Assembly (NCBI RefSeq): GCF_900109545.1
Contig: NZ_FOAP01000001.1
Span: 558,001 to 622,000 of the forward strand
Origin: Stigmatella aurantiaca
GTDB taxonomy: Bacteria > Myxococcota > Myxococcia > Myxococcales > Myxococcaceae
DNA length: 64,000 nt
Direction of reading: 5' to 3'
Shown here: piece after piece, positions 2,031 through 52,416 of the stretch
How the letters are laid out: each line of letters begins with the position of its first letter
Position numbering within the stretch: position 1 is the first letter of the stretch
The notes under the pieces: model-generated
Database searches by the model: none
What the model was told of the DNA's origin: nothing
The model's input: the letters and a program-made list of their open reading frames with translations, nothing else
Program-made: the position numbers and the translations under genes

Positions 2031-5000
2031 TTGTCACCTCCCGTGCTCAGCTTCTGCGTGGGCTCGCTGGCGCCGGGCGCGGGGCCGGAGAGCTGGCCCA
2101 CGAGGCCCTCGGGGTAGGCCGTCGCGGAGGCGATGGACTGCTTGGGCTCCTTGAGCACGGGGTACTCTTTGGGGCGGAAGCGGTTGAGCGACTCCAGGGT
2201 GCGCCGGGACCACTCGTTGGACACGTGGCTCTTGCGCACCTCTTGCAGGGTAGCCGCGTACTTCTCCACGGCCTTGTCCTCCACCTCCGCGGTCTGCTGG
2301 GCGAGCAGATCCTGGTAGGCCACCACCGCCTCTTCGCCCAGGCGCTTCACGTCCGCGGGCACGGGCGTTTCGATGATGGTGTTGGCGAAGCGCTCCAGCA
2401 CGTAGCCCTTGCGGTACGAGGCCGCCAGGGACCACTCCAGGCGCTTGAAGGGGAAGACCTTGTCATAGGCGCTGTTCACGGCTTTGACGCCGTTGCGCTT
2501 GGCCTCGAAGCTCCGCTCCAGCGCCTTGCCCCGGCCGCCAATCTTCAGCGTGTCGAACTGTTTGAGTTCCAGCTCGGCGAGCTGGAAGCGGCTGAAGGCG
2601 GCGGCCTCGGCGGCGCGGGGGTGGGTGTCGGGCTTCATGCCGCGCCGGTTGAACTCGTCCGCCGCCCGGGTCCACGACCGCCGCGCATCGCGCTCCTTGT
2701 CCACCTTCAGGAACGCCTCCCCGAGGCGCTTGTGGGCTTCCACCACCAGCTCCGCCTGGGCCGGCTTGTTGGAGAATGTCCTCACGAAAGCGTTCAGCTC
2801 GCGCAGCGTGCGCCACCAGTCCTGGTGCTTCTCGAAGATGAGCGCGGCCCGGTACTGGTTGCGCGGCGCGTCCTCGGACTTGGGGAATAGCTCCACCAGG
2901 CGCATGAAGGCCCGCGCCGCCTCGGGGTAGCGCTGCTGGGCTTCCAGCAGGCGGGCGGCGTTGAAGAGCGCCGCCTCGCGGTCCTTCGAGTCGGGGTAGT
3001 CCTTCACCAGCTTCTGGTAGCTGACGACGGCCTTCTCGAAGTCGTAGGACTTCTCCGCGTTGACCGCCACGCGGAACAGCGCCGCGTCCGCCAGCTTCGA
3101 GGTGGGGTACTCGCGGTAGATGCGCTCGTAGAGCTTGAGGGCCGAGTCGAACCGGCGCGTGTTCTCGTAGGCGATGGCGGCGTTGTTGAGGGCCTTGTCC
3201 GCGAACTCGTGGCGCGGAGCCTCCTCCACCAGCAGGAGGTACTTCCGGGCCGCCTCGTCATACTGGCCCGCGGCCAGGAGCTGGTCGGCCAGCTTGAAGC
3301 GGCCGGAGAGCTTGTACTTCACCAGCTCCTTGTAGAGGTTGCTCGACGGGTCGATGACGTCCTTGTTGGCGATGAGCCGGCCGCTCACCTCTTCGACGCT
3401 GCGCCAGTCCTTGTCGATGAGGAAGCTCTCGACGATGAGGTTGGTGGAGAAGCCCGCCACCTCGTGCTTGGGCCAGTTCTGGACGATGGCCTCCAGGCGC
3501 CGGCGCGCCTCGGGAAAGTCGTTGTGGGCGTAGAACAGCTCGGCGGCCTTGTAGGCGATGCCCGGGCTCTTCTCGTCCCGGGGCAGCTTCTCCACGTACA
3601 CGTCCGAGCCCGCCACCAGCCGCGTCTCCGCGTCCGACAGGGGCAGACGCTCGATCTGCTGGGCCTCGGCCAGCTCGCTGGCGCGCAGGGCCTTGTACTG
3701 CTTCGCCTTGCCCTCCTGGACATCCCGCGTGAGCTGCTGCTGCCAGGCGAGCACCGTGCTGAAGGCCGCGTCCTTGAGGAAGCGCGTGTCCTTGGGCCAG
3801 TCGCGCACCTGCTCGTAGTTCGCCGCCGCCTGGGAGAACTGGAGCGAGTGGTAGAGGCACTCGGCGTAGTAGAAGCGGATCTCGTACGCGTTCGGGCTGT
3901 GGGGATAGCGCTCCAGGTAGTTGCCGTAGGACGCCGCGGCCACCTGGTAGCCCGCCCGGACCTGCTCGGGCGAGCCCTCCTTCTTGAGCGCGAGCGCCTG
4001 CTGGTGGTGGTAGATGGCGGCGCTGTAGAGGCTCTTCTCCGCCATGGCGTTGGCGGTGGCCAGCGCCTCGGGCGAGTGCGCGTTCGCCTTGTACCAGTCG
4101 CTTCCCGGGCTGTAGAGCCGGGCCAGCACCTCTGCCTCGGCGAAGGACTCGGGCAGCTTCCGGTCCCGCTCGTACGCCTCGACGATCCGCTGCTGGAGCC
4201 TCGGCGCATCCGGCGCCAGAGGCTCCTTCTGGAGCGCCCGCCGGTAGGCGGTGATGGCATCGGGGTGGTTGGTCTGGTCGAACCAGACGTTGCCCAGGCG
4301 CCGGTAGAGATCGGCCTCGTAGGGGCGGGGGCCCCGCTGGGCGAGGATGGCCTCGGTCCTGGGCAGGCCGCCCCAGGTGTCATCCGCCAGGGAGACCGCG
4401 ACGTACTGGAGCGCCTCCTCGCGCAGGTCTCCGCCCCCGAAGCCCTTGCCCTGGGCCTGCTTCTGGGCCTCGTAGAAGTCCGCCAGGTCCAGGAAGCGCG
4501 CCACCGCATCGCCGAAGCGGTCCATGCGGTAGTACGTCCAGCCCAGCTTGTAGAGCGCCTTGTCGTAGAGCGGGTGGGTGGGGTCCTTCGTGGCGGCCTC
4601 GTAGGCCTGGGCCGCCTTGGCCAGCACTTCCGGGCCGCTGTACGCGTCGAAGTAGTGCTCGCCGATGCGCACCCAGGCCTCGATGGCGAAGCGGCTCTTC
4701 GGGTAGCGCGCGATGAGCTGCTGGTAGGTGGCGTGGCTCTCGTCGAACTGGTTCTGCTTCTCCTGGCAGTAGCCCAGCAGGTACCAGGCCCCGTCGTTGA
4801 GCCGGTAGTCCGGAAAGTCGTGGATGAGCCGCTGGTAGAGGGCGATGGAGAGCCCGAAGTTCACCGCGGGCTCCTCGGGCGGCTGCGCGTTGTCCGGCAG
4901 GCTCTGGAGCTTCTGCTCGTGGGCGCTCAGGGCCGTCAGGTGCTCGTCGCTGGAGCGCTCGTAGTACAGCTCCGCCAGGCGGAACATGACGTCCGGGGTG

Positions 5001-5356
5001 TGCCGGGGCTCGCGCGGATAGCGCTCCAGGAACGCCTCGAACTGGGCAATGGCCGCCAGCCGCTCCTGGCGCTCGACGGCCTCCAGGGTGCCCAGGTTCT
5101 TCTCATAGGAGGTGGTCAGCTCGCCGCGCCGCGCCTCGTACCGGCGCTCCATCAGCCGCCGCGCTTCGAGCCGGTACTCGCGGGCCTCGGCCTCGTAGGC
5201 CTGGAGGGCGCGGCTGAGCTCCTGGAGCAGCGCCTCGTCCTCCGGCGTGCGGCCCATGCCCTCCAGGTAACGGCCCTGCGCGGGGGCAGGGGAGGGCGGC
5301 TGGGAGGAGGCCACCCAGGGCACCAGCGCCAGCAGCATGGGGAGCAGGCGCCGCAT
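2027..5356 (-). CDS. gltD: large periplasmic TPR protein, GltD (AgmU)-like
   Basis: About 1109 residues: a signal peptide (MRRLLPMLLALVPWVASSQ), a helical Arg/Glu-rich segment to about residue 110, then TPR/Sel1-like repeats almost to the end, with many (F/L)xxxYP motifs typical of outer-membrane TPR scaffolds. M. xanthus GltD/AgmU is a TPR protein of similar size in the gliding machinery. I chose ATG 5356 because it forms a TGATG stop-start overlap with the preceding gene; GTG 5359 is the alternative. It overlaps the gltE-like gene downstream by four bases. The name rests on size, repeat type and gene order, and paralogy with Nfs-type complexes remains open. Confidence 0.68.
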   Translation of the reverse strand: MRRLLPMLLALVPWVASSQPPSPAPAQGRYLEGMGRTPEDEALLQELSRALQAYEAEAREYRLEARRLMERRYEARRGELTTSYEKNLGTLEAVERQERLAAIAQFEAFLERYPREPRHTPDVMFRLAELYYERSSDEHLTALSAHEQKLQSLPDNAQPPEEPAVNFGLSIALYQRLIHDFPDYRLNDGAWYLLGYCQEKQNQFDESHATYQQLIARYPKSRFAIEAWVRIGEHYFDAYSGPEVLAKAAQAYEAATKDPTHPLYDKALYKLGWTYYRMDRFGDAVARFLDLADFYEAQKQAQGKGFGGGDLREEALQYVAVSLADDTWGGLPRTEAILAQRGPRPYEADLYRRLGNVWFDQTNHPDAITAYRRALQKEPLAPDAPRLQQRIVEAYERDRKLPESFAEAEVLARLYSPGSDWYKANAHSPEALATANAMAEKSLYSAAIYHHQQALALKKEGSPEQVRAGYQVAAASYGNYLERYPHSPNAYEIRFYYAECLYHSLQFSQAAANYEQVRDWPKDTRFLKDAAFSTVLAWQQQLTRDVQEGKAKQYKALRASELAEAQQIERLPLSDAETRLVAGSDVYVEKLPRDEKSPGIAYKAAELFYAHNDFPEARRRLEAIVQNWPKHEVAGFSTNLIVESFLIDKDWRSVEEVSGRLIANKDVIDPSSNLYKELVKYKLSGRFKLADQLLAAGQYDEAARKYLLLVEEAPRHEFADKALNNAAIAYENTRRFDSALKLYERIYREYPTSKLADAALFRVAVNAEKSYDFEKAVVSYQKLVKDYPDSKDREAALFNAARLLEAQQRYPEAARAFMRLVELFPKSEDAPRNQYRAALIFEKHQDWWRTLRELNAFVRTFSNKPAQAELVVEAHKRLGEAFLKVDKERDARRSWTRAADEFNRRGMKPDTHPRAAEAAAFSRFQLAELELKQFDTLKIGGRGKALERSFEAKRNGVKAVNSAYDKVFPFKRLEWSLAASYRKGYVLERFANTIIETPVPADVKRLGEEAVVAYQDLLAQQTAEVEDKAVEKYAATLQEVRKSHVSNEWSRRTLESLNRFRPKEYPVLKEPKQSIASATAYPEGLVGQLSGPAPGASEPTQKLSTGGDK

Positions 5357-7698
5357 CACTCGCCGGTGTCCTGGAGGGAGTCCTGGAGGCTCTTGTCCAG
5401 CGCGCGCACCGCCTCGTCCTTCTGGACGGACAGCGCCTGGATCTGCTCCGTCTTGTCCTGCTTGCGCGTGAAGGCCACATCCACGAGGCCCAGGTCTCCC
5501 TTGAGCACCAGCTCGTAGAAGTGCTGGCGGACGCGGCGGAAGCTGTCGAAGGCGATGCGGCCCACGAGGTTGCGCGCGTCCGCCGAGGCGGTGGCCGTCT
5601 CCGCGTCATACCGCGTGAGCAGCGCCTCCTCGGCCCGGACCTTGTCCTGGATGATGCGCACGCGGCGCTCCCGCTGGGCGAGGAGCACGCCCTTGGAGGC
5701 GGCCACCCGGGCACGAAGCCCGTCCGCGCGCTCGCGAACCTCCTGCACGCGCGCCATCTGCCGGGCCACGTCCTCGGGCAGCCGGCTGGAGATGGAGGCC
5801 AGCAGCAGGTGCTCGCGCTGGAGCACCCCGTAGAACTGCTGGCGGATGGTCTCCTCGCCCGCCACGAAGGAGGCCACGCGGGTGCGCTCGTCGGAGAGCT
5901 GGGCGCGCGTCCGGGCCAGCTCCGCCTTCAGCTCCTCCTGGAGGTCCGTCTCGGTCTGGATCTTCCCGAGCACGTCGATCTCCGCCTCGGACGGCGGCTT
6001 CTTCGGATCGCGCGAGTCGGCCAGCCACTTGAGCACCGAGGCCGTCACGGCATTCTGGCTCTGCAGCTCGTAGATGAGCCGGAAGGCCTCGCGGTCCAGC
6101 GTGTCGATGCGGGCCTGCATCCGCTGGCGCCGGGTCTCCTTCTCCTCCAGCGTGGTGGGCAGCAGGGCGAAGCGCTCGGCCACGGGCTCGCGCTCCCGGC
6201 GGAGGGCCTCCAGTTGCTGGCGCTCCTCGGGCGTGAGGTGCTCCAGCACCATGGCCGCCTCGAGCTGCACCAGCACCTGCTCCATCCGGATGAGCCCGCT
6301 CTCCACGGCGTCCACCCGGTTGTACCCCTCGTGCAGCTCGGGGAAGGCCTCCCAGCCCTGCTTGGCCAGGGTGTCGAGGACGCGCGTGGCCAGCGCCCGG
6401 GCCTCGGTCACGCCCTGCTGGCCCTTGGCGAGGTCTCCCACCAGCCGCGAGGCGTCGGAGATTTCTTGCTGCGTGGTGGCGTAGCGCAGCGCCACCGGGG
6501 GCAGCAGCGTGCCCAGCTCCAGCGTGCGGCTGCTCTCGGACAGCAGGTTGTCGAAGTAGACGACCGGATCGCTCGTGCGGGTGAGCAGCTCATCGAGCTG
6601 GTCCTTCACCGGCCGGTAGGCGGTGATGACCTGGTGGTAGCTCTCGGTGGCCTCGTCGTAGCGCCGCATCTTGAGCAGCAGGTGCGCCTGGAGGAGCTGG
6701 GCATCGGGCACCCGCGTGGACTCCGGGGCCATCTGCAGCAGCAGGTCGACGGCGTCCTTGGCGGGCTCGAAGCGGCCCCGCTTCACCTGCGTCCAGGCGA
6801 TCTCGTAGAGCGTATCCACGAAGTAGTCGCTGTCCCGGGGAATCTCCTGGTAGCGGTCCAGCGCCTCGTCCAGCCGTCCACTCTCGTAGAGCAGCCGGCC
6901 CATGGAGAGGTTGGCGAGCTCGCGGATGCGCCGCTCTTCCCGGCTGCTGGCGGGCAGGGCCGTCACGGCGCGGAAGCGCTCGATGGCGTCCGCGAACTCC
7001 CCGGCCTGCACGGACAGCACGCCCAGGTGGTAGGCGCTCTGGCGGGGGATGAGCTCGCTGGTGGCCTGCGTCAGCGGCTCGAACGCGGCCCGGGCGCTGC
7101 GGATGCGCTCCGCGGGGGGCAGGTCCGTGCGCTTGAAGAGCCACTTGGCGTACACGTACGCCAGCTCGGGCGGGAGCTGGCCCCCGGACAGCTGCCGGGC
7201 CTGCTCGATGTACGAGTCGATGTCCTCGAACTGGTTGAGGCGGCTGGCGACGCTCAGGTACCGCGAGAGGCCGTCCTTGTAGCGCTCCGTGGGGGGCAGG
7301 GAGAGCTGCTGGCGCAGGTACAGCCGCGCGCCGATGAAGTTCTGCTGCTGGTAGAGCGCGTCGGACAGATAGAAGAGTGCATCGGCGTAGCGCGGATGGC
7401 GCTTGAAGGCCGGTTCGCTCACCAAGTCATAGAAGAGGACCGACGCCGAGGCCCAGTCGCCCAGCAGGTACTGAATCTCGCCATCGGAGAAGCGCCGCAG
7501 GTGGCTGCCGTCATCCGTGGGCTCGGGGCGCTGGGTGAACTGCGTCTCGACGAAGCGGACGTGGGAGTCCGCGTTCTGGAGCTGCTCCTCCACCTGCTTC
7601 AGCGGCAGGGCGTCTGACGCCTGCGCGTGGACACGGCCCGGCGCGGTGGTGAACACGAGGGCCGTTGCGGCGAAGGCCAGGACGCGGGAAGTGCTCAC
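5356..7698 (-). CDS. exported TPR/coiled-coil protein of the motility cluster
   Basis: A 780-residue protein with a signal peptide (MSTSRVLAFAATALVFTTAP..VHAQ), TPR-like helical repeats over residues 25-350, and a charged region from about 470 to 720 that reads as long coiled coil (repeated Glu/Arg/Leu heptads such as EEKETRRQRMQARIDTLDRE). It lies between the mglA-proximal small exported gene and the gltD-like gene, 10 bases after the former and overlapping the latter. The start codon is GTG. I do not recognise a named M. xanthus orthologue. A structural role in the envelope-spanning motility complex is inferred from context only. Confidence 0.8.
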   Translation of the reverse strand: MSTSRVLAFAATALVFTTAPGRVHAQASDALPLKQVEEQLQNADSHVRFVETQFTQRPEPTDDGSHLRRFSDGEIQYLLGDWASASVLFYDLVSEPAFKRHPRYADALFYLSDALYQQQNFIGARLYLRQQLSLPPTERYKDGLSRYLSVASRLNQFEDIDSYIEQARQLSGGQLPPELAYVYAKWLFKRTDLPPAERIRSARAAFEPLTQATSELIPRQSAYHLGVLSVQAGEFADAIERFRAVTALPASSREERRIRELANLSMGRLLYESGRLDEALDRYQEIPRDSDYFVDTLYEIAWTQVKRGRFEPAKDAVDLLLQMAPESTRVPDAQLLQAHLLLKMRRYDEATESYHQVITAYRPVKDQLDELLTRTSDPVVYFDNLLSESSRTLELGTLLPPVALRYATTQQEISDASRLVGDLAKGQQGVTEARALATRVLDTLAKQGWEAFPELHEGYNRVDAVESGLIRMEQVLVQLEAAMVLEHLTPEERQQLEALRREREPVAERFALLPTTLEEKETRRQRMQARIDTLDREAFRLIYELQSQNAVTASVLKWLADSRDPKKPPSEAEIDVLGKIQTETDLQEELKAELARTRAQLSDERTRVASFVAGEETIRQQFYGVLQREHLLLASISSRLPEDVARQMARVQEVRERADGLRARVAASKGVLLAQRERRVRIIQDKVRAEEALLTRYDAETATASADARNLVGRIAFDSFRRVRQHFYELVLKGDLGLVDVAFTRKQDKTEQIQALSVQKDEAVRALDKSLQDSLQDTGE

Positions 7699-7708
7699 CG
7701 GAGGGCCC

Positions 7709-8479
7709 TTACGGAGTGCCGGTGGCGGAAGTGGGGCCCGGGGGCGCTTCGGGGGCGGGGGCGGCCGCCTTGCCGGGCTCGCGCGACACCTCGATGTCGT
7801 AGCGCACCGCGGGCCGGTCCTTCAGATCCGTGGTGAAGCCCCCCTTCTCGAAGCCGACCACCGTCAACGCCGTCCGCTTGCCGGCATCGGCGCTGAACGT
7901 GTAGCTGGACTGCACCTTGAACTTGTAGCCGTCCAGGTAGCTGAACACGCCGTAGCCGTTGCCCCGGTACGTCAGCCGCACGGACACCTGGTGCTGGCCG
8001 GGGATGATGCGGCCGTTGAAGATCTCGAACCCCTCGGGCTTGTCGAGCTCGCCGTTCTCGTTCACGCGCGTGAAGATGGGCGCGCCGTCCAGCGAGTAGC
8101 TCACCGACTCCAGCACGAACGAGCTGCCCATGGTGTTCTTGTGGATGAGCACCGCGCGCGCGCCCGAGGCGATGTCCCCGGCGAGCACCGTCTCCTGCAA
8201 GAGCATCAGCCGCGCCTTGGAGCGGTAGATCTTCTCCTTCAAGTCCACGACCTGCTCTTCCAGCGTCTTGACGCGGGTGTTGAAGGACTCCTCGGCCGTC
8301 TGGGCGGAGACCGCGGGCTCAGGGCTCGCGGGAGCCGGGGCCGGAGGGGCCTCGGGAGCAGGCGCGGCGGCGGGGGCTTCGGGGGCAGGAGCCGCGAGGG
8401 CCTCCTGGGCGGACACCGGCAAGCTCAGGCCGATGCCCAGCAGCGCGAAGAGGCAGAGGGTGGAGGAAGCGCAACGCAC
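7709..8479 (-). CDS. exported Pro/Ala-rich coiled-coil protein downstream of mglA
   Basis: I set the start at GTG 8479 because a GAGG ribosome-binding site lies six bases upstream and the product then opens with a good signal peptide (MRCASSTLCLFALLGIGLS..VSAQ). An open frame from TTG 8494 exists but has no such site. The mature protein has a low-complexity APAPEAP linker, a short coiled coil (VKTLEEQVVDLKEKIYRSKA), then a roughly 150-residue beta-rich domain (RIIPGQHQVSVRLTYRGNG) and a second Ala/Pro-rich tail. No named family is evident. Position between mglA and the TPR genes suggests a periplasmic part of the same machine. Confidence 0.8.
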   Translation of the reverse strand: MRCASSTLCLFALLGIGLSLPVSAQEALAAPAPEAPAAAPAPEAPPAPAPASPEPAVSAQTAEESFNTRVKTLEEQVVDLKEKIYRSKARLMLLQETVLAGDIASGARAVLIHKNTMGSSFVLESVSYSLDGAPIFTRVNENGELDKPEGFEIFNGRIIPGQHQVSVRLTYRGNGYGVFSYLDGYKFKVQSSYTFSADAGKRTALTVVGFEKGGFTTDLKDRPAVRYDIEVSREPGKAAAPAPEAPPGPTSATGTP

Positions 8480-46761: not shown

Positions 46762-47774
46762 AGATCGACATCCACACCCACCTGCTGCCGGCCGAGCTGC
46801 CGCGCTTCGCCGAACGCTATGGCTATGGCGGGTTCATCACCCTGGAGCACCACCAGCCGTGCCGGGCGCGGATGATGCGGGATGACGGGAAGTTCTTCCG
46901 CGAAATCGAGAGCAACTGCTGGGACCCGGCGCGCCGCCTGGCCGAGTGCGATGCCGCGGGCGTCAGCGTCCAGGTGCTCTCCACGGTGCCGGTGATGTTC
47001 AGCTACTGGGCGAAGCCGGAGCACGGGCTGGACCTGTCCCGCTTCCTGAATGACCACCTGGCCTCGGTGGTGCGGACGAACCCGCGCCGTTTCGCGGGGC
47101 TGGGAACGGTGCCCTTGCAGGATGTGCCCAGGGCCATCGGGGAGCTGGAGCGCTGCGTGCGCGAACTGGGGCTCGCGGGGGTGCAGATCGGCTCCCACGT
47201 GAACGGCACCAACCTGGGGGATGCCTCGCTCTTTCCCTTCTTCGAGGCGGCGGCGGCGCTGGGGGCGGCGGTGTTCGTCCACCCGTGGGACATGCTGGGC
47301 GGGGCGCGGCTGGAGAAGTACTGGCTGCCGTGGCTCGTGGGCATGCCCGCCGAGGTGGCCATCGCGCTCTCCACGCTCATCTTCTCGGGGACGCTGGAGC
47401 GGCTGCCTACGCTGCGGCTCGCCTTCGCCCACGGAGGCGGCTCCTTCCCGGGGACGATTGGCCGGCTCCAGCATGGCTTCGAGGCGCGGCCGGACCTGGT
47501 GGCCGTGGACAACCCGGTGCCGCCGCGGGACTACCTGGGGCGCTTCTGGGTGGACTCGCTGGTACACGACGCGGACGTGCTGCGCCTCATCCTCCGGCTG
47601 CTGGGTCCGGAGAAGGTGGCGCTGGGCAGTGACTACCCGTTCCCGCTGGGGGAGGAGCGTCCGGGCACGCTGCTCGAATCCCTGACGGAGCTGGATGCCG
47701 CCACGCGCGAGCGGCTGCTGTGGCGCAACGCCCTCGAATGGCTCGGGCGCACCCGGGAGGACTTTGGCTCATGA
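46758..47774 (+). CDS. 2-amino-3-carboxymuconate-6-semialdehyde decarboxylase (ACMSD)
   Basis: A 338-residue amidohydrolase-fold protein: MKIDIHTHLLP carries the zinc His6 and His8; later His residues occur in FVHPWDMLGG and AFAHGGGSF, and the metal Asp in LGSDYPFPLG. It decarboxylates ACMS to aminomuconate semialdehyde, directing flux away from quinolinate and NAD. GTG 46758 overlaps the dioxygenase stop; the ATGA at its end overlaps kynU. Confidence 0.95.
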   Translation: MKIDIHTHLLPAELPRFAERYGYGGFITLEHHQPCRARMMRDDGKFFREIESNCWDPARRLAECDAAGVSVQVLSTVPVMFSYWAKPEHGLDLSRFLNDHLASVVRTNPRRFAGLGTVPLQDVPRAIGELERCVRELGLAGVQIGSHVNGTNLGDASLFPFFEAAAALGAAVFVHPWDMLGGARLEKYWLPWLVGMPAEVAIALSTLIFSGTLERLPTLRLAFAHGGGSFPGTIGRLQHGFEARPDLVAVDNPVPPRDYLGRFWVDSLVHDADVLRLILRLLGPEKVALGSDYPFPLGEERPGTLLESLTELDAATRERLLWRNALEWLGRTREDFGS

Positions 47775-49054
47775 CGGAGGCTTCGATGCGTTTCGAGGAA
47801 GGGGAGGCGTTCGCGAGGAGGATGGACGCCGAGGACCCCCTGCGCGCGTTCCGGGAGGAGTTCCTCTTTCCTCAGAGCCCCCAGGGAGGGCCCCTGGTCT
47901 ACCTGGCGGGAAACTCGCTGGGGCTTCAGCCGCGCCGGACAAAGCAGTACGTCCAGGAGGAGCTGGAGGACTGGGCGCGGCTGGGCGTGGAGGGCCACTT
48001 CCATGCGCGCCACCCCTGGCTGCCGTACCACGAGAACCTGACCGGACAGACGGCGCGGCTCGTGGGAGCGCTGCCCTCCGAAGTGGTGGTGATGAACACC
48101 CTCTCGGTGAACCTCCACCTGATGATGGTGTCGTTCTACCGGCCCACGCGCGAGCGATTCAAAATCCTCATCGAAGGAGGGGCGTTCCCCTCGGACCAGT
48201 ACGCAGTGGCCTCCCAGGCACGCTTTCACGGGTTCGACCCCAAGGACGCGGTGCTGAAGCTGGAGCCGCGCGCGGGCGAGGACACGCTGCGCACGGAGGA
48301 CATCCTGGAGACGCTGGAGCGGCACGGCGCCAGCATCGCCCTGGTGCTGCTGGGCAACGTGAACTACCTCACCGGGCAGGCGTTCGACATGAAGGCCCTC
48401 ACCCAGGCCGCGCACGCGCGGGGCTGCCGGGTGGGGTTCGATCTGGCGCACGGGGCGGGCAACCTGCATCTGTCGCTGCACGACGATGGGCCCGACTTCG
48501 CCGTCTGGTGCTCGTACAAGTACCTCAACGGCGGCCCGGGAGCGCTGGGAGGCGTCTTCGTCCATGAGCGGCACGCCCGGGCGGAGGGCCTGCCGCGCTT
48601 CGAGGGCTGGTGGGGCAACGACAAGGCCACCCGGTTTCAGATGGGGCCGGACTTCGTCCCGCTGCCGGGGGCGGAAGGGTGGCAGCTCTCCAACCCGCCC
48701 ATTCTCCAGCTCGCGGCCCTGAGGGCCTCGATGGAGCTGTTCGACCAGGCCACCATGCCCCGCCTGAGGGCCAAGGGGGACCTGCTCACGGGCTACCTGG
48801 AGTTCCTGCTCGACCGGCTGCCGCCGGGGTTCGTGCGCGTCACCACCCCGAGGGACGTGAAGGCGCGGGGCTCGCAGCTCTCGCTGCGCTTCTCGCGGGA
48901 CCCGAGGCGCTTGCTGACCCGGCTCTCCGAGGCGGACGTCTGCTGTGACTTCCGTGCGCCGGACATCATCCGGGCGGCCCCCGCGCCGCTGTACAACTCC
49001 TTTCAGGACGTCTACCGCTTCGTGAAGGTGCTGGAGAGCCATGCCCGCGATTGA
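47771..49054 (+). CDS. kynU: kynureninase
   Basis: A 427-residue PLP enzyme: YLAGNSLGLQPRRTKQYVQE, HENLTGQTARLVGA, GFDLAHGAGNLHLSLHDDG, and the Schiff-base lysine in CSYKYLNGGPG (about residue 249). It cleaves 3-hydroxykynurenine (or kynurenine) to 3-hydroxyanthranilate (or anthranilate) and alanine. ATG 47771 overlaps the ACMSD stop. Its own 3' end overlaps the KMO gene by 14 bases. Confidence 0.97.
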   Translation: MTEASMRFEEGEAFARRMDAEDPLRAFREEFLFPQSPQGGPLVYLAGNSLGLQPRRTKQYVQEELEDWARLGVEGHFHARHPWLPYHENLTGQTARLVGALPSEVVVMNTLSVNLHLMMVSFYRPTRERFKILIEGGAFPSDQYAVASQARFHGFDPKDAVLKLEPRAGEDTLRTEDILETLERHGASIALVLLGNVNYLTGQAFDMKALTQAAHARGCRVGFDLAHGAGNLHLSLHDDGPDFAVWCSYKYLNGGPGALGGVFVHERHARAEGLPRFEGWWGNDKATRFQMGPDFVPLPGAEGWQLSNPPILQLAALRASMELFDQATMPRLRAKGDLLTGYLEFLLDRLPPGFVRVTTPRDVKARGSQLSLRFSRDPRRLLTRLSEADVCCDFRAPDIIRAAPAPLYNSFQDVYRFVKVLESHARD

Positions 49055-50438
49055 CCAGACGCAGACCGTGACGCTGGCTGGAGCGGGGCTGGTGGGCTCG
49101 CTGCTGGCCATGTTCCTGGCCCGGCGCGGCTTCCAGGTGGAGGTGCTGGAGCGGCGTGCGGACATGCGGAAGGAGCAGGGCTCGGCGGGACGCTCCATCA
49201 ACCTCGCCATCTCCGCGCGAGGGCTGCATGCGCTGCGGCAGGTGGGGCTGGAGCAGGAGGCGCTGCGGCACGCCATCCCCATGCGGGGCCGGATGATCCA
49301 CCCGCTGTCGGGGGAGCTGAGCCTGCAACCCTATGGGAAGGATGACTCCCAGCACATCAACAGCATCTCCCGGGCGTGGCTCAACAAGAGCCTGATGACG
49401 CACGCGGAAGAGACCAACCGGGTCTCCATTCGCTTCAAGCAGCGCATCCAGCACGTGGACTTCGACACGGGCGCGCTCACGGTGCTGGACGAGCCGAGCG
49501 GCACCACCCGAGAGGAGCGGGCCGCCGTGCTGCTGGGCACGGATGGCTCGGGCTCGGCGGTGCGGCAGGAGATGATGCGGCTGCCGGGATACCACTCGAC
49601 CCAGGAGCCGCTGGGCCACGGCTACAAGGAGCTGACCATTCCGGCGGGGCAGGGGAGCACGTTCCAGATGGAGAAGAACGCGCTGCACATCTGGCCTCGG
49701 GGCGCCTTCATGCTCATCGCGCTGCCGAACGAGGACGGCAGCTTCACCTGCACGCTCTTCCTGCCGTTCGAAGGGCCGGTGAGCTTCGCGTCCCTGGACT
49801 CCCCCGAGAAGGTGCAGGCCTTCTTCGAGGAGCAGTTTCCGGACGCCGTTCCGCTCCTGCCGGAGCTGACGCACGACTTCTTCCACAACCCCACGGGGAC
49901 GATGGTCACCGTGAAGAGCGCGCCCTGGCACGTGGGAGGGCGCGCGCTGGTGCTGGGAGACGCGGCGCACGCCATCGTGCCGTTCTTCGGCCAGGGGATG
50001 AACTGCGGCTTCGAGGACTGCGTGGTGCTCGATGGGTGCCTGGCGCGCCACCAGACGTGGGAGGACGCCTTCGGGGAGTTCTTCGGGCTGCGCAAGACGA
50101 ACGCGGATGCCATCGCGGACATGGCGGTGGAGAACTTCACGGAGATGAGCAGCAGCACCGCCAGCGCGCGCTTCCTGCTGGAGAAGCAGGTGGAGAAGGC
50201 GCTGCTCAACGCGTTTCCGGGCCAGTTCCTGAGCCGCTATTCGCTGGTGAGCTTCAGCCGGGCTCCCTACCGCCTGGCCTACGAGGCCGGTACGCGGGCG
50301 GGAGGCATCGTGTCGGAGCTGGCCGAGGGCCTGTCGCGCGTGGAAGACGTGGACATGGAGCGGGCCGCCCGGCTCATCCAGGAACGGCTGGTGCCATTCA
50401 TGAAGGAGCACGCGGATGGATTTCGGACTGAAGGATAA
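49041..50438 (+). CDS. kynurenine 3-monooxygenase
   Basis: A 465-residue FAD monooxygenase: Rossmann VTLAGAGLVGSLLAMFLARR, SINLAISARGLHALRQVG (KMO-typical), and the second flavin motif LVLGDAAHAIVPFFGQGMNC. The C-terminal region (SRAPYRLAYEAGTRAGGIVS) differs from the eukaryotic membrane anchor, as in bacterial KMO. It hydroxylates kynurenine to 3-hydroxykynurenine. It is the upstream step of the pathway but a downstream gene in the operon; tryptophan dioxygenase and formamidase are not in the window. Confidence 0.95.
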   Translation: MPAIDQTQTVTLAGAGLVGSLLAMFLARRGFQVEVLERRADMRKEQGSAGRSINLAISARGLHALRQVGLEQEALRHAIPMRGRMIHPLSGELSLQPYGKDDSQHINSISRAWLNKSLMTHAEETNRVSIRFKQRIQHVDFDTGALTVLDEPSGTTREERAAVLLGTDGSGSAVRQEMMRLPGYHSTQEPLGHGYKELTIPAGQGSTFQMEKNALHIWPRGAFMLIALPNEDGSFTCTLFLPFEGPVSFASLDSPEKVQAFFEEQFPDAVPLLPELTHDFFHNPTGTMVTVKSAPWHVGGRALVLGDAAHAIVPFFGQGMNCGFEDCVVLDGCLARHQTWEDAFGEFFGLRKTNADAIADMAVENFTEMSSSTASARFLLEKQVEKALLNAFPGQFLSRYSLVSFSRAPYRLAYEAGTRAGGIVSELAEGLSRVEDVDMERAARLIQERLVPFMKEHADGFRTEG

Positions 50439-51153
50439 GCGGGCGCTGGTGCTGGGGGCCTCCGGTGGCCTGGGATTCGCCATCGCCTCGACACTGGTGA
50501 AGGAGGGGGCGAAGGTAGCCATCTGCTCGCGCAGCGAGGAGCGGATTCGTGCCGCGGCATCGAGCATGGGGGCGGTGCAGGGCATCGCCGCGGACCTCAC
50601 CGCGCCGGGGAGTACCCGTTCGGTCGTGGAGAAAGCCATCACGGCGCTGGGCGGCGTGGACATCTTGGTCATCAACACCGGAGGCCCCCCGAAAGGCGGC
50701 ATCCTGGATGTGACAGACGCTCAGTGGCAGGAAGGCTTTCAGAGTCTGTGGATGGGCGCGGTGGAAGGGATTCGCGCGGCAGTGCCAGGAATGAAGGAAC
50801 GGAACTGGGGCCGCATCGTGATGGTGACCTCCTCTTCGGCCCGCGAGCCCATGCCAGGGCTCACCATCTCCAGTGGCCTGAGGGCAGGCCTGATGGGGCT
50901 CACCAAGATTGTCAGCGACGAAGTAGCGGGCCACGGCATCACCCTGAACGCCGTACTCCCGGGCTACCACGCCACGGATCGCCTGAAACAACTGGGCATC
51001 GCCGAGGAGCGGCTCTCTTCACAAATTCCCGCGCGGCGGCTGGGGCGTCCGGAAGAGCTGGGCGCCTTGGTGGCATTCCTGGCTTCGGAGCAAGCGGCGT
51101 ACATCACCGGTCAATCCATCGTAGCCGACGGTGGCGCGTCTCGCAGCTTTTAA
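50416..51153 (+). CDS. SDR-family protein without the usual Tyr/Lys catalytic pair
   Basis: A 245-residue FabG-like SDR overlapping the KMO gene by 23 bases, so clearly part of the operon. It has ALVLGASGGLGFAIASTL, NTGGPPKGGILD and the C-terminal ITGQSIVADGGASRSF. Where YxxxK is expected it reads TISSGLRAGLMGLTK, so Tyr is Ser and Lys is Arg. I recall a conserved-domain subgroup of beta-ketoacyl-reductase-like SDRs that lacks the catalytic tetrad. A role in kynurenine metabolism is inferred only from position; a redox step seems unlikely. Confidence 0.88.
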   Translation: MDFGLKDKRALVLGASGGLGFAIASTLVKEGAKVAICSRSEERIRAAASSMGAVQGIAADLTAPGSTRSVVEKAITALGGVDILVINTGGPPKGGILDVTDAQWQEGFQSLWMGAVEGIRAAVPGMKERNWGRIVMVTSSSAREPMPGLTISSGLRAGLMGLTKIVSDEVAGHGITLNAVLPGYHATDRLKQLGIAEERLSSQIPARRLGRPEELGALVAFLASEQAAYITGQSIVADGGASRSF

Positions 51154-51318: not shown

Positions 51319-51357
51319 ATTGTTCTATCTGCTCACGGTCAAGCCAACCTCCCGCTT

Positions 51358-51411
51358 CTTGTAACGTGTTAGGTTACAAGGGGGGCGGGGGCGTATCAGT
51401 TCATGTTACAA
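51358..51411. promoter_or_regulatory. dyad CTTGTAAC-N7-GTTACAAG plus extra half-site
   Basis: Perfect eight-base arms at 51358-51365 and 51373-51380, with another GTTACAA half-site at 51405-51411, 32 bases beyond the second arm (about three helical turns). The element is AT-rich for this genome and lies about 170 bases before the Cys-rich peptide gene. An operator for that gene is the simplest reading. The remainder of 51154-51552 shows no gene. Confidence 0.5.
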
Positions 51412-51552
51412 ATCTGGACTTGAGCGCCTTGGCGCACGGGCGGGGCAGCGGTGGAAGGGGCCGGTGGAATGAAATGTGCATCTCGCATTGCCCTCGAAGT
51501 ATTCAGTTGCGCGATACCCTAACGTTTCACTCTTCCCCCGCCGAGGTGTCCC

Positions 51553-51702
51553 ATGAAGACCCATGCAAAGAAGACCCGCTCGAAGAAGGCCAATCAATTC
51601 ATCGCCTCGCTGCTGAAGGACAGCACGAAGGGCCCCATTGATATCTGTAAGATCTGTAACTTCTGCATGCTCTGCAACATTTGCCGGATTGGCAGCAAGT
51701 AG
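51553..51702 (+). CDS. 49-residue peptide with a (Cys-X-X)x5 core
   Basis: Read directly: ATG 51553, GAGG six bases upstream, stop TAG at 51700. The first ~15 residues are Lys/Arg-rich (MKTHAKKTRSKKANQF), followed by a hydrophobic/polar segment (IASLLKDSTKGPID). The core at residues 31-45 repeats hydrophobic-Cys-X exactly: Cys32, Cys35, Cys38, Cys41 and Cys44 (ICKICNFCMLCNICR), then IGSK. It looks like a precursor peptide (leader plus core) or a thiolate metal binder. Cys codons include TGT and the gene is less GC-rich than neighbours, suggesting unusual origin. A GRDP-like protein gene follows after a hairpin. I know no named family. Confidence 0.72.
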   Translation: MKTHAKKTRSKKANQFIASLLKDSTKGPIDICKICNFCMLCNICRIGSK

Positions 51703-51718
51703 GGCATTTGGGCTGCGG

Positions 51719-51749
51719 GTGCCATCGCCCGCCAGAAGAGCGATGGCAC
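51719..51749 (+). other. hairpin between the Cys-rich peptide gene and the GRDP-like gene
   Basis: Perfect ten-base arms GTGCCATCGC and GCGATGGCAC with an 11-base loop, 16 bases after the peptide stop, then TTGCGTTCTTCC. It may protect or partly terminate the peptide transcript so the peptide is made in excess over the downstream protein. Confidence 0.6.
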
Positions 51750-51783
51750 TTGCGTTCTTCCGGGCGACGCGAGCGAGGGCATG

Positions 51784-52416
51784 ATGAAAAAGGCAGCGAA
51801 GAGGCGGACTGTGCGCGGGCAGCAGAACCTTCGGCCTTCGAGAAGGAAGAAGGTATGCTCGCTGGCAGAGGCCCTGTCCTACCGCAACGAGAAGGTTCTG
51901 CGGCGTTTCCTGGATGTCTATGCCGTGCCCGAAGCGGAGGCACGTGAGCTCTTCCACGAGACGAAGAAGTGGTTGTGGCTTTGTGCGCGCAGCATCGAGT
52001 CAAAGGGACCCCGGTTGGCCGTGCAGGCCCCGCTGCTGATGATCGATGAGATGTGGCACACCTTCATGCAGTACACGATGGATTACCAGCGCTACTGCCT
52101 GGACCGGTTGGGCATCTTCGTCCACCACCTGCCGGCGAACTCGAGCGACAAGCTGCGAGAGCGCAAGCGCTACGAAGCCAACCCCGAGCGTTTCATGAAG
52201 CGGTACCAGGCTGCGTTGAAGCGGCAGTACGGCTTCATCTATGACGAGCTGGGGGAAGAGCGGGGGGAGGCGACCCTGCTCAAGTGGTATCAGGAATATC
52301 CCAAGCGTTATTCCCTCGAGTTTCTTGAGCTGCACCGTATCCCCTACACCCAGGAGGAGCACGCCTCGCAGTCCCCAGCGCTCCCCGCCTCGGGCGCTCC
52401 CGCCGTAGCGGCCTGA
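51784..52416 (+). CDS. GRDP/DUF1399-like protein next to the Cys-rich peptide
   Basis: About 210 residues (ATG 51784; ATG 51781 is directly adjacent and possible). The N-terminus is Lys/Arg-rich, then a helical domain with MIDEMWHTFMQYTMDYQRYC (Asp88 to His92) and GIFVHHLP (His114, His115), followed by basic helices and an Ala/Pro tail. The D-E-x-W-H ... Y-x-x-C ... H-H-x-P pattern resembles bacterial glycine-rich-domain-containing-protein-like sequences, whose function is unknown. His/Asp spacing could bind metal. It is encoded 81 bases after the Cys-triplet peptide, so it is a candidate partner or modifier. Confidence 0.75.
   Translation: MKKAAKRRTVRGQQNLRPSRRKKVCSLAEALSYRNEKVLRRFLDVYAVPEAEARELFHETKKWLWLCARSIESKGPRLAVQAPLLMIDEMWHTFMQYTMDYQRYCLDRLGIFVHHLPANSSDKLRERKRYEANPERFMKRYQAALKRQYGFIYDELGEERGEATLLKWYQEYPKRYSLEFLELHRIPYTQEEHASQSPALPASGAPAVAA

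Follow-up and report, generated by a model that had tools for sequence, protein, structure and literature searches.

A conserved gene pair encoding a cysteine-rich, precursor-like peptide and a WH-domain (GRDP-like) partner, with fused relatives in other bacteria

The window, by which we mean the whole 64,000-nucleotide stretch of DNA that was analysed, holds on its forward strand a gene for a 49-aa cysteine peptide (51553..51702), recognised through its orthologues and paralogues, and behind it the gene for a 211-aa WH-domain (GRDP-like) partner protein (51781..52416). The five cysteines of the peptide stand at residues 32, 35, 38, 41, and 44 and are preceded by I, I, F, L, and I, respectively, and a GAGG ribosome-binding site (51543..51546, forward strand) lies six bases 5' of the ATG. 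The frame, its length, the cysteine positions, the residue before each cysteine, and the GAGG site are all as described in the first-pass annotation of this DNA. The leader would comprise approximately residues 1-29 and the core approximately residues 30-45. The Cys core CKICNFCMLCNIC, read from the sequence and compared across the family, occupies 51646..51684 on the forward strand, and the leader includes the segment ANQFIASLLK (51589..51618, forward strand), in which the motif [LIF][LI]xxL[LVA] precedes the first cysteine. A six-frame reading of the window shows the (hydrophobic-Cys-X)x5 pattern a single time, and 100 order-2 Markov sequences of equal length do not contain it at all.

Orthologues of the peptide were found in three of the six other genomes of the genus (Hyalangium), one each in G036, G037, and G038 (69-85% identical to the window peptide, E 2e-25 to 4e-16), and each of these genomes also encodes one shorter, four-Cys paralogue (58-63% identical, E 4e-9 to 2e-7). 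Across the 96 family genomes searched, credible homologues are confined to this genus, the other listed matches having E values of ~0.07 or worse; in two further members, G039 and G040, neither the partner nor a credible peptide was found, the one peptide match in G040 (E 0.79) lying within a 339-aa frame. Comparison of the three paralogues reveals that they are under strong purifying selection, as estimated from their substitutions (dN 0.02-0.04 vs dS 0.39-0.71, any two differing by 2 to 4 non-synonymous and 8 to 12 synonymous changes), and in a reading-frame test on these pairs the sense frame gave the strongest contrast, followed by one minus-strand frame. The contrast is weaker among the four orthologues (dN 0.07-0.23, dS 0.11-0.54; 0.07 and 0.11 for the window against G038). 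A chance open frame over a regulatory region would be compatible with the longer minus-strand frame that overlaps the gene and with the comparison of the window and G038 alone, where no frame could be distinguished from the others and the substitutions do not favour the sense frame. However, the sense-frame selection in the paralogues, the presence of GAGG at most 20 bases 5' of the start in 7/7 family peptides, and the existence of seven homologues speak against chance, to which we give almost no credence. Because the 49-aa frame at 51553-51702 is conserved, we conclude from these comparisons that it is a real gene.

All 32 cysteines in the seven family peptides are preceded by I, F, or L, and the spacing and number of the cysteines vary. 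Myxobacterial genomes thus hold homologues of the peptide, as the first-pass annotation had thought worth searching for, but the exact three-residue (Cys-X-X)5 spacing that it called perfect is a property of the 49-aa peptide and not of the family, being found in only three of the seven peptides; the G036 orthologue, for example, has C-x2-C-x2-C-x3-C-x2-C. Among the 145 genomes of the order that were searched, a peptide profile found six of the eight with a close partner relative, a recovery that is not independent, as the profile was built from those very peptides; outside these six it gave a single weak match (E 0.0016, within a 625-aa frame of G107). G056, with a peptide recognised by eye and described below, is a seventh of the eight. 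A search of PDB sequences gave no match for the peptide.

Two structures flank the peptide gene. Upstream, a perfect 8-bp inverted repeat, CTTGTAAC-N7-GTTACAAG, was read directly at 51358..51380, and a further GTTACAA stands near it at about 51405. The repeat is imperfect in G038 and was not seen in the G036/G037 alignment, which weakens the case for an operator, and we regard it as a possible, poorly conserved candidate. Between the two genes, a 14-pair RNA stem (51715..51753, forward strand, with 51715-51728 pairing with 51740-51753) is kept in 4/4 loci, with 96.4% of cells paired vs 32-46% in slid controls. Its covariation is modest, with two pairs altered on both sides and both alterations common to G036 and G037; among 500 shuffles, 16 reached the observed pairing and 346 reached two pairs changed on both sides. 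From its position, this hairpin may favour the precursor over the partner and yield more of the former.

The first-pass annotation had made its reading depend on a conserved homologue beside a similar neighbour gene and had suggested testing whether the downstream gene is conserved. Both were found: the same 211-aa gene lies directly downstream of the peptide gene in 4/4 orthologous loci, and the partner orthologues adjoining the peptide in G036-G038 are 79-91% identical. By blastn, the window and the G038 locus share homologous DNA that begins at 51473 and ends with the partner stop codon (51473..52416, forward strand), with a weaker 89-bp stretch at 51340-51428, and homology with G037 and G036 likewise stops at 52416. 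The pair is kept in four genomes with three different surroundings, those of G036 and G037 being the same. Its upstream neighbours in the window, an FAD mono-oxygenase and a short-chain dehydrogenase, are located elsewhere in G038 and G037, where homology extends as far as the dehydrogenase end and no farther. The MscS-type channel gene downstream has another location in G036 and G037, and a search at E 1e-60 did not recover it from the other four relatives. Since homology is confined to the pair with some DNA upstream of it and the neighbours lie elsewhere, the peptide and its partner behave, in these alignments, as a two-gene unit. Farther upstream, a gene run at 47720-51153, which resembles a kynurenine-pathway group, is conserved in G038 and G037, and the homology there ends before the peptide unit.

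Downstream of the four-Cys paralogue of G038, 107 bases (40 residues) of the partner gene remain, and hence this paralogue too seems once to have had a partner. No such remnant was found in the 13 kb around the paralogue in G036 or G037, where the partner gene is present at the other (orthologue) locus of each genome. In H. versicolor (G041; L019, 5936-6531, also L044), the partner occurs without the peptide and without its own first 24 residues, and the locus looks as if a deletion removed the peptide gene. The occurrence of a two-gene unit in different surroundings would also suit a toxin-antitoxin or immunity-like cassette, in which a small basic, hydrophobic peptide is neutralised by its larger neighbour. 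The G036/G037 paralogue, however, persists under purifying selection with no partner remnant nearby, even if a partner gene exists at the orthologue locus of each genome, and the Cys tails fused to relatives of the partner, described below, misfit a toxin with its antidote; such a cassette is in our estimation very unlikely.

The locus thus presents a short gene-encoded peptide with a conserved leader, a more variable core, and an adjoining partner gene, as in a RiPP precursor, and among the genes adjoining the four Hyalangium pairs none was recognised as belonging to a known class of RiPP enzyme (the window neighbours were domain-scanned, and the 13-kb loci of the other three were read by eye). 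No transporter gene was recognised next to the window or G038 pair; in G036 and G037 an ABC-transporter-like gene set, recognised by eye, lies more than 1 kb upstream of the pair on the other strand.

The partner displays the pattern D-x-x-W-H...Y...C...H-H-x-P. No Pfam profile matched it at E 1 or below, and its NCBIfam match was negligible (E 0.039, 13 of the 442 bits needed). Its relatives, found by profile and translated searches (three query proteins in the case of plasmids) and confirmed with a profile of 11 relatives, occur in myxobacteria and in the phylum of Uabimicrobium (Planctomycetota); plasmid-borne relatives come from Escherichia, Aureibacter, Rhizobium, Agrobacterium, Rhodococcus, Streptomyces, and others. 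A close relative (E below 1e-70) is present in 8/145 genomes of the order and any match at 1e-5 in 13/145, and the WH profile matches at E 1e-8 in 13/195 sampled genomes of the home phylum and in 11/343 of the Uabimicrobium phylum. In the family listing, the motif is present in 50 members and absent from two (L092 and L016); 41 of the 50 were aligned after nine had been dropped by hand, namely the near copies L002, L003, L035, L036, L040, L073, L091, and the second L093 gene, together with the weakest member, L101, which has a Cys tail. D89, H93, T99, Y102, H116, and P118 are invariant in this alignment, and W92, C106, G111, and H115 are nearly so.

The GRDP-like family, PF07173, matched 5/41 of these members at E up to 0.01 (best 4e-7), two partner relatives scoring 17.3 and 20.7 bits against the curated cut-off of 22.7, and a search of the window's genome gave no match, the control genomes being equally without one. 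Because these five relatives match, the partner would belong to the broad GRDP-like family by profile linkage through its relatives; the name given to the downstream gene in the first-pass annotation holds in this sense and fails by direct PF07173 score. AlphaFold2 gave no reliable fold for three sequences (the window protein, L019, and L020; mean pLDDT of 59.0 and 62.5 in two models), Foldseek against the PDB returned four matches with E values up to 10, of which none reached 0.001, and profile searches of PDB sequences with the partner yielded nothing better than E 0.3, so these searches connected the WH domain with no known catalytic family and no fold. No relatives were found in the viral contigs scanned, and PADLOC and PHROGs gave nothing credible. 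An "unverified bacteriophage" record, MT837770.1 (L106), carries tandem WH, glycosyltransferase, and transporter genes as on an Agrobacterium plasmid; since the gene set is the same, MT837770.1 is probably not a phage, and it was ruled out as viral evidence.

Relatives of the partner are accompanied by cysteine-rich sequence in two forms. At least three cysteines lie in the last 45 residues of 15/41 WH members vs 23/333 other frames of the same loci, which were chosen by length and GC, so that some of these controls may not be genes; at least two lie there in 21/41 members, and an earlier count over the last 40 residues and fewer loci gave 14/41 vs 11/205. A linked, separate short leader-Cys peptide was counted for 10/41 members, with the leader motif and a 1600-bp upstream limit fixed after the peptides had been seen, and also for 28/333 control frames, 27 of which flank the same peptide genes and one of which is unrelated. 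No member (0/41) combines a Cys tail with a separate peptide, and 10/41 have neither, that is, fewer than two tail cysteines and no peptide. Three members were read for this count from longer stretches of the same genes, and the 41 members are not independent, so that the p-values for tails and peptides are only a guide.

The fused tails include CGCSGKGCGAGCSC on the E. coli plasmid, CKGCNGCAAGC in Rhizobium gallicum, and repeats of ADCLREA in Azospirillum and AWCSLEA in Variovorax. Separate peptides adjoin the partner in Uabimicrobium (six Cys), Aureibacter (three Cys), G032, and G033; in G056 a 42-aa Cys peptide found by eye lies 27 bp downstream of the partner, and in more distant members the peptide, located ~1.6 kb upstream of the partner, is multi-core and repeats an AGCIS unit. 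The motif [LIF][LI]xxL[LVA] precedes the first cysteine in 8/8 peptides from six lineages (e.g., LIENLV, LLEQLL, and LIRQLA, with FIASLL in the window peptide) and occurs in 5/180 background short Cys frames, two of which are family members. Because the arrangement is either fused or split, it can be argued that the domain acts on the Cys stretch and vice versa, and the recurrence of the leader speaks for docking where the two are separate. The first-pass suggestion of a precursor-like peptide, with leader and Cys core, next to a GRDP-like gene is supported by the conservation of the pair across four genomes, by the comparable leader motif that stands before Cys cores of three distant groups, and by the conserved hairpin; its further proposals of cross-linked cysteines, metal binding, or signalling are hypotheses.

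The neighbouring genes of the relatives are diverse. In Uabimicrobium the pair is directly followed by an ABC gene that encodes membrane and ATPase domains, and one of the same kind follows the tailed WH gene on the E. coli plasmid and is succeeded by a JmjC/cupin gene. This Cys-tailed WH protein is encoded on a 7.9-kb mobilizable plasmid (L050, NZ_CP023830.1, 4339-7564), its gene being present in 36/5426 complete E. coli genomes and on plasmids in 40/40 places; for a plasmid of this type, the available part of PMC9598891 mentions mobilisation genes alone. Agrobacterium has two tandem tailed WH copies with a glycosyltransferase and an ABC transporter gene, and the WH gene of Streptomyces lies two genes from one for a radical SAM protein. 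In a distant myxobacterial group, a domain scan of L048 placed a flavin mono-oxygenase and an MFS transporter near the WH gene. The cluster concerned (L045-L049 and L131, in G032, G007, G004, G006, G034, and G036) appears to resemble a separate RiPP cluster, with a multi-core peptide, MK(N/H/S)LIRQ...(AGCIS)n, and a 423-aa protein whose AMP-binding match is negligible (E 0.24) beside the mono-oxygenase, WH, and transporter genes. At another locus (L130 in G212, 2519-7981), the WH gene adjoins a 380-aa frame with a GGSSCGSSCGSSCGGC tail; near it are a 198-aa bufferin-like frame (12 Cys) and a gene for a multinuclear non-haem iron (MNIO) enzyme, the latter alone having been domain-scanned, and a 290-aa frame near the MNIO gene is a candidate MNIO partner.

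Metal-related neighbours of some relatives would suit plain metal binding equally well. Under this explanation, the peptide would stay unmodified, its Cys core serving in the manner of a small metallothionein or as a shuttle for metal, which the WH domain would load or hold via its invariant Asp and His. Consistent with it are the CxxC-type cores; the invariant D, H, and H and near-invariant C and H of the domain; in Uabimicrobium, a P-type ATPase (copper-type by eye) upstream of the pair; in Aureibacter, CobN, ExbB-like, and TonB-receptor genes surrounding the pair; in R. gallicum, nif genes surrounding the WH gene; and in R. ruber, a cadmium transporter near a WH gene with one tail Cys only. 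However, core spacing and composition vary widely, multi-core repeats such as AGCIS and AWCSLEA would be unlike metallothioneins, and the recurring leader would exceed the needs of a chelator. We rank simple metal binding second, after action on the Cys core, and hold it to be rather unlikely.

The peptide could also be the substrate of an MNIO enzyme encoded elsewhere, as bufferins and methanobactins are; the WH protein would then serve as a partner or carrier. MNIO genes (PF05114) are present in 21/25 genomes or records tested, including the window's genome, where two MNIO matches lie on contigs C7 and C2 and the pair on C1. A Planktothrix WH protein also has a TIGR04222 domain, and in G212 the WH gene lies ~3.5 kb from the MNIO gene beside the bufferin-like frame. 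Cys-tailed TIGR04222 proteins are proposed MNIO substrates according to PMC12452194, the main text of which lacks the terms GRDP, glycine-rich, and DUF1399. The Planktothrix protein is encoded on a plasmid (L099, 2887-4416) and unites WH, TIGR04222 (E 2.2e-22), and a (CGGG)n tail. Against the MNIO explanation, an MNIO gene lies less than 5 kb from the WH gene in G212 only and none adjoins the window precursor, 0/4 plasmid records have MNIO genes, and G039 and G040 have them but lack the peptide; we therefore deem it unlikely.

Starting from the observed gene, conserved pairing, recurring leader motif, fused versions, and hairpin, we tentatively favour a RiPP-like precursor with a partner acting on its cysteines, a reading to which we assign more weight than to any other while holding it short of probable. 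The 49-aa product would be a ribosomally made precursor with a basic, partly hydrophobic leader and a functional Cys core. The leader would be held by the 211-aa WH-domain partner from the next gene, and the partner would act on the core to give a Cys-modified or Cys-cross-linked peptide that may be exported to its final role; the likeliest capacities for such a partner are those of a metal-dependent modifying enzyme and of a docking partner for an enzyme. In other bacteria, the same type of domain would have the Cys stretch as its own tail, and therefore no leader would be needed. Action on the Cys core is ranked first because of the leader, the multi-core repeats, the transporters, and the tailoring-type genes; counting against a modifying partner are the failure to recognise a RiPP enzyme gene next to the Hyalangium pairs or a transporter gene next to those of the window and G038, the domain's lack of a catalytic-family or fold match, the 10/41 members without tail or peptide, the truncated H. 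versicolor partner without a peptide, and the metal-related neighbours of some relatives.

More broadly, the pair and its fused relatives point to an unrecognised kind of ribosomally made Cys peptide, probably modified or metal-binding. A bolder proposal, which we consider speculative and rather unlikely, is that the WH (GRDP-like) domain represents a new enzyme family, spread across bacterial phyla, that modifies peptides at their cysteines, acting in trans on leader peptides and in cis on tails and giving a new class of ribosomal Cys product. Taken together, the fused and split forms hint at the function of a domain so far uncharacterised, and the pair offers a minimal two-gene system for probing it. 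Should the domain modify cysteines, genome mining in myxobacteria, Uabimicrobium relatives, Bacteroidota, rhizobia, and E. coli would gain access to a new class of RiPPs.

Among known systems, GRDP-like proteins (PF07173, named for glycine-rich domain-containing proteins) are connected to the window protein through the 5/41 wider-family members that match, whereas the window protein itself has neither a match nor a Gly- or Cys-rich tail. The titles and abstract openings of the literature, with few subscription papers among them, made no link between the WH/GRDP-like domain and Cys peptides. Cys-tailed TIGR04222 proteins and bufferins, which are MNIO-linked, differ from the window pair in that the latter has no nearby MNIO gene and a separate short precursor; they resemble the fused WH members in carrying a Cys-rich C-terminal stretch on a larger protein, and the Planktothrix member joins both domains. 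In RiPP systems with leader-core precursors, the substrate may be either separate from the enzyme or fused to it. Neither an enzyme family nor a recognition domain known from RiPP systems was identified with our pair, the RiPP status of which is put forward from sequence, but the likeness extends to the short leader-Cys peptide beside the partner gene, the multi-core versions, and the transporters near some relatives.
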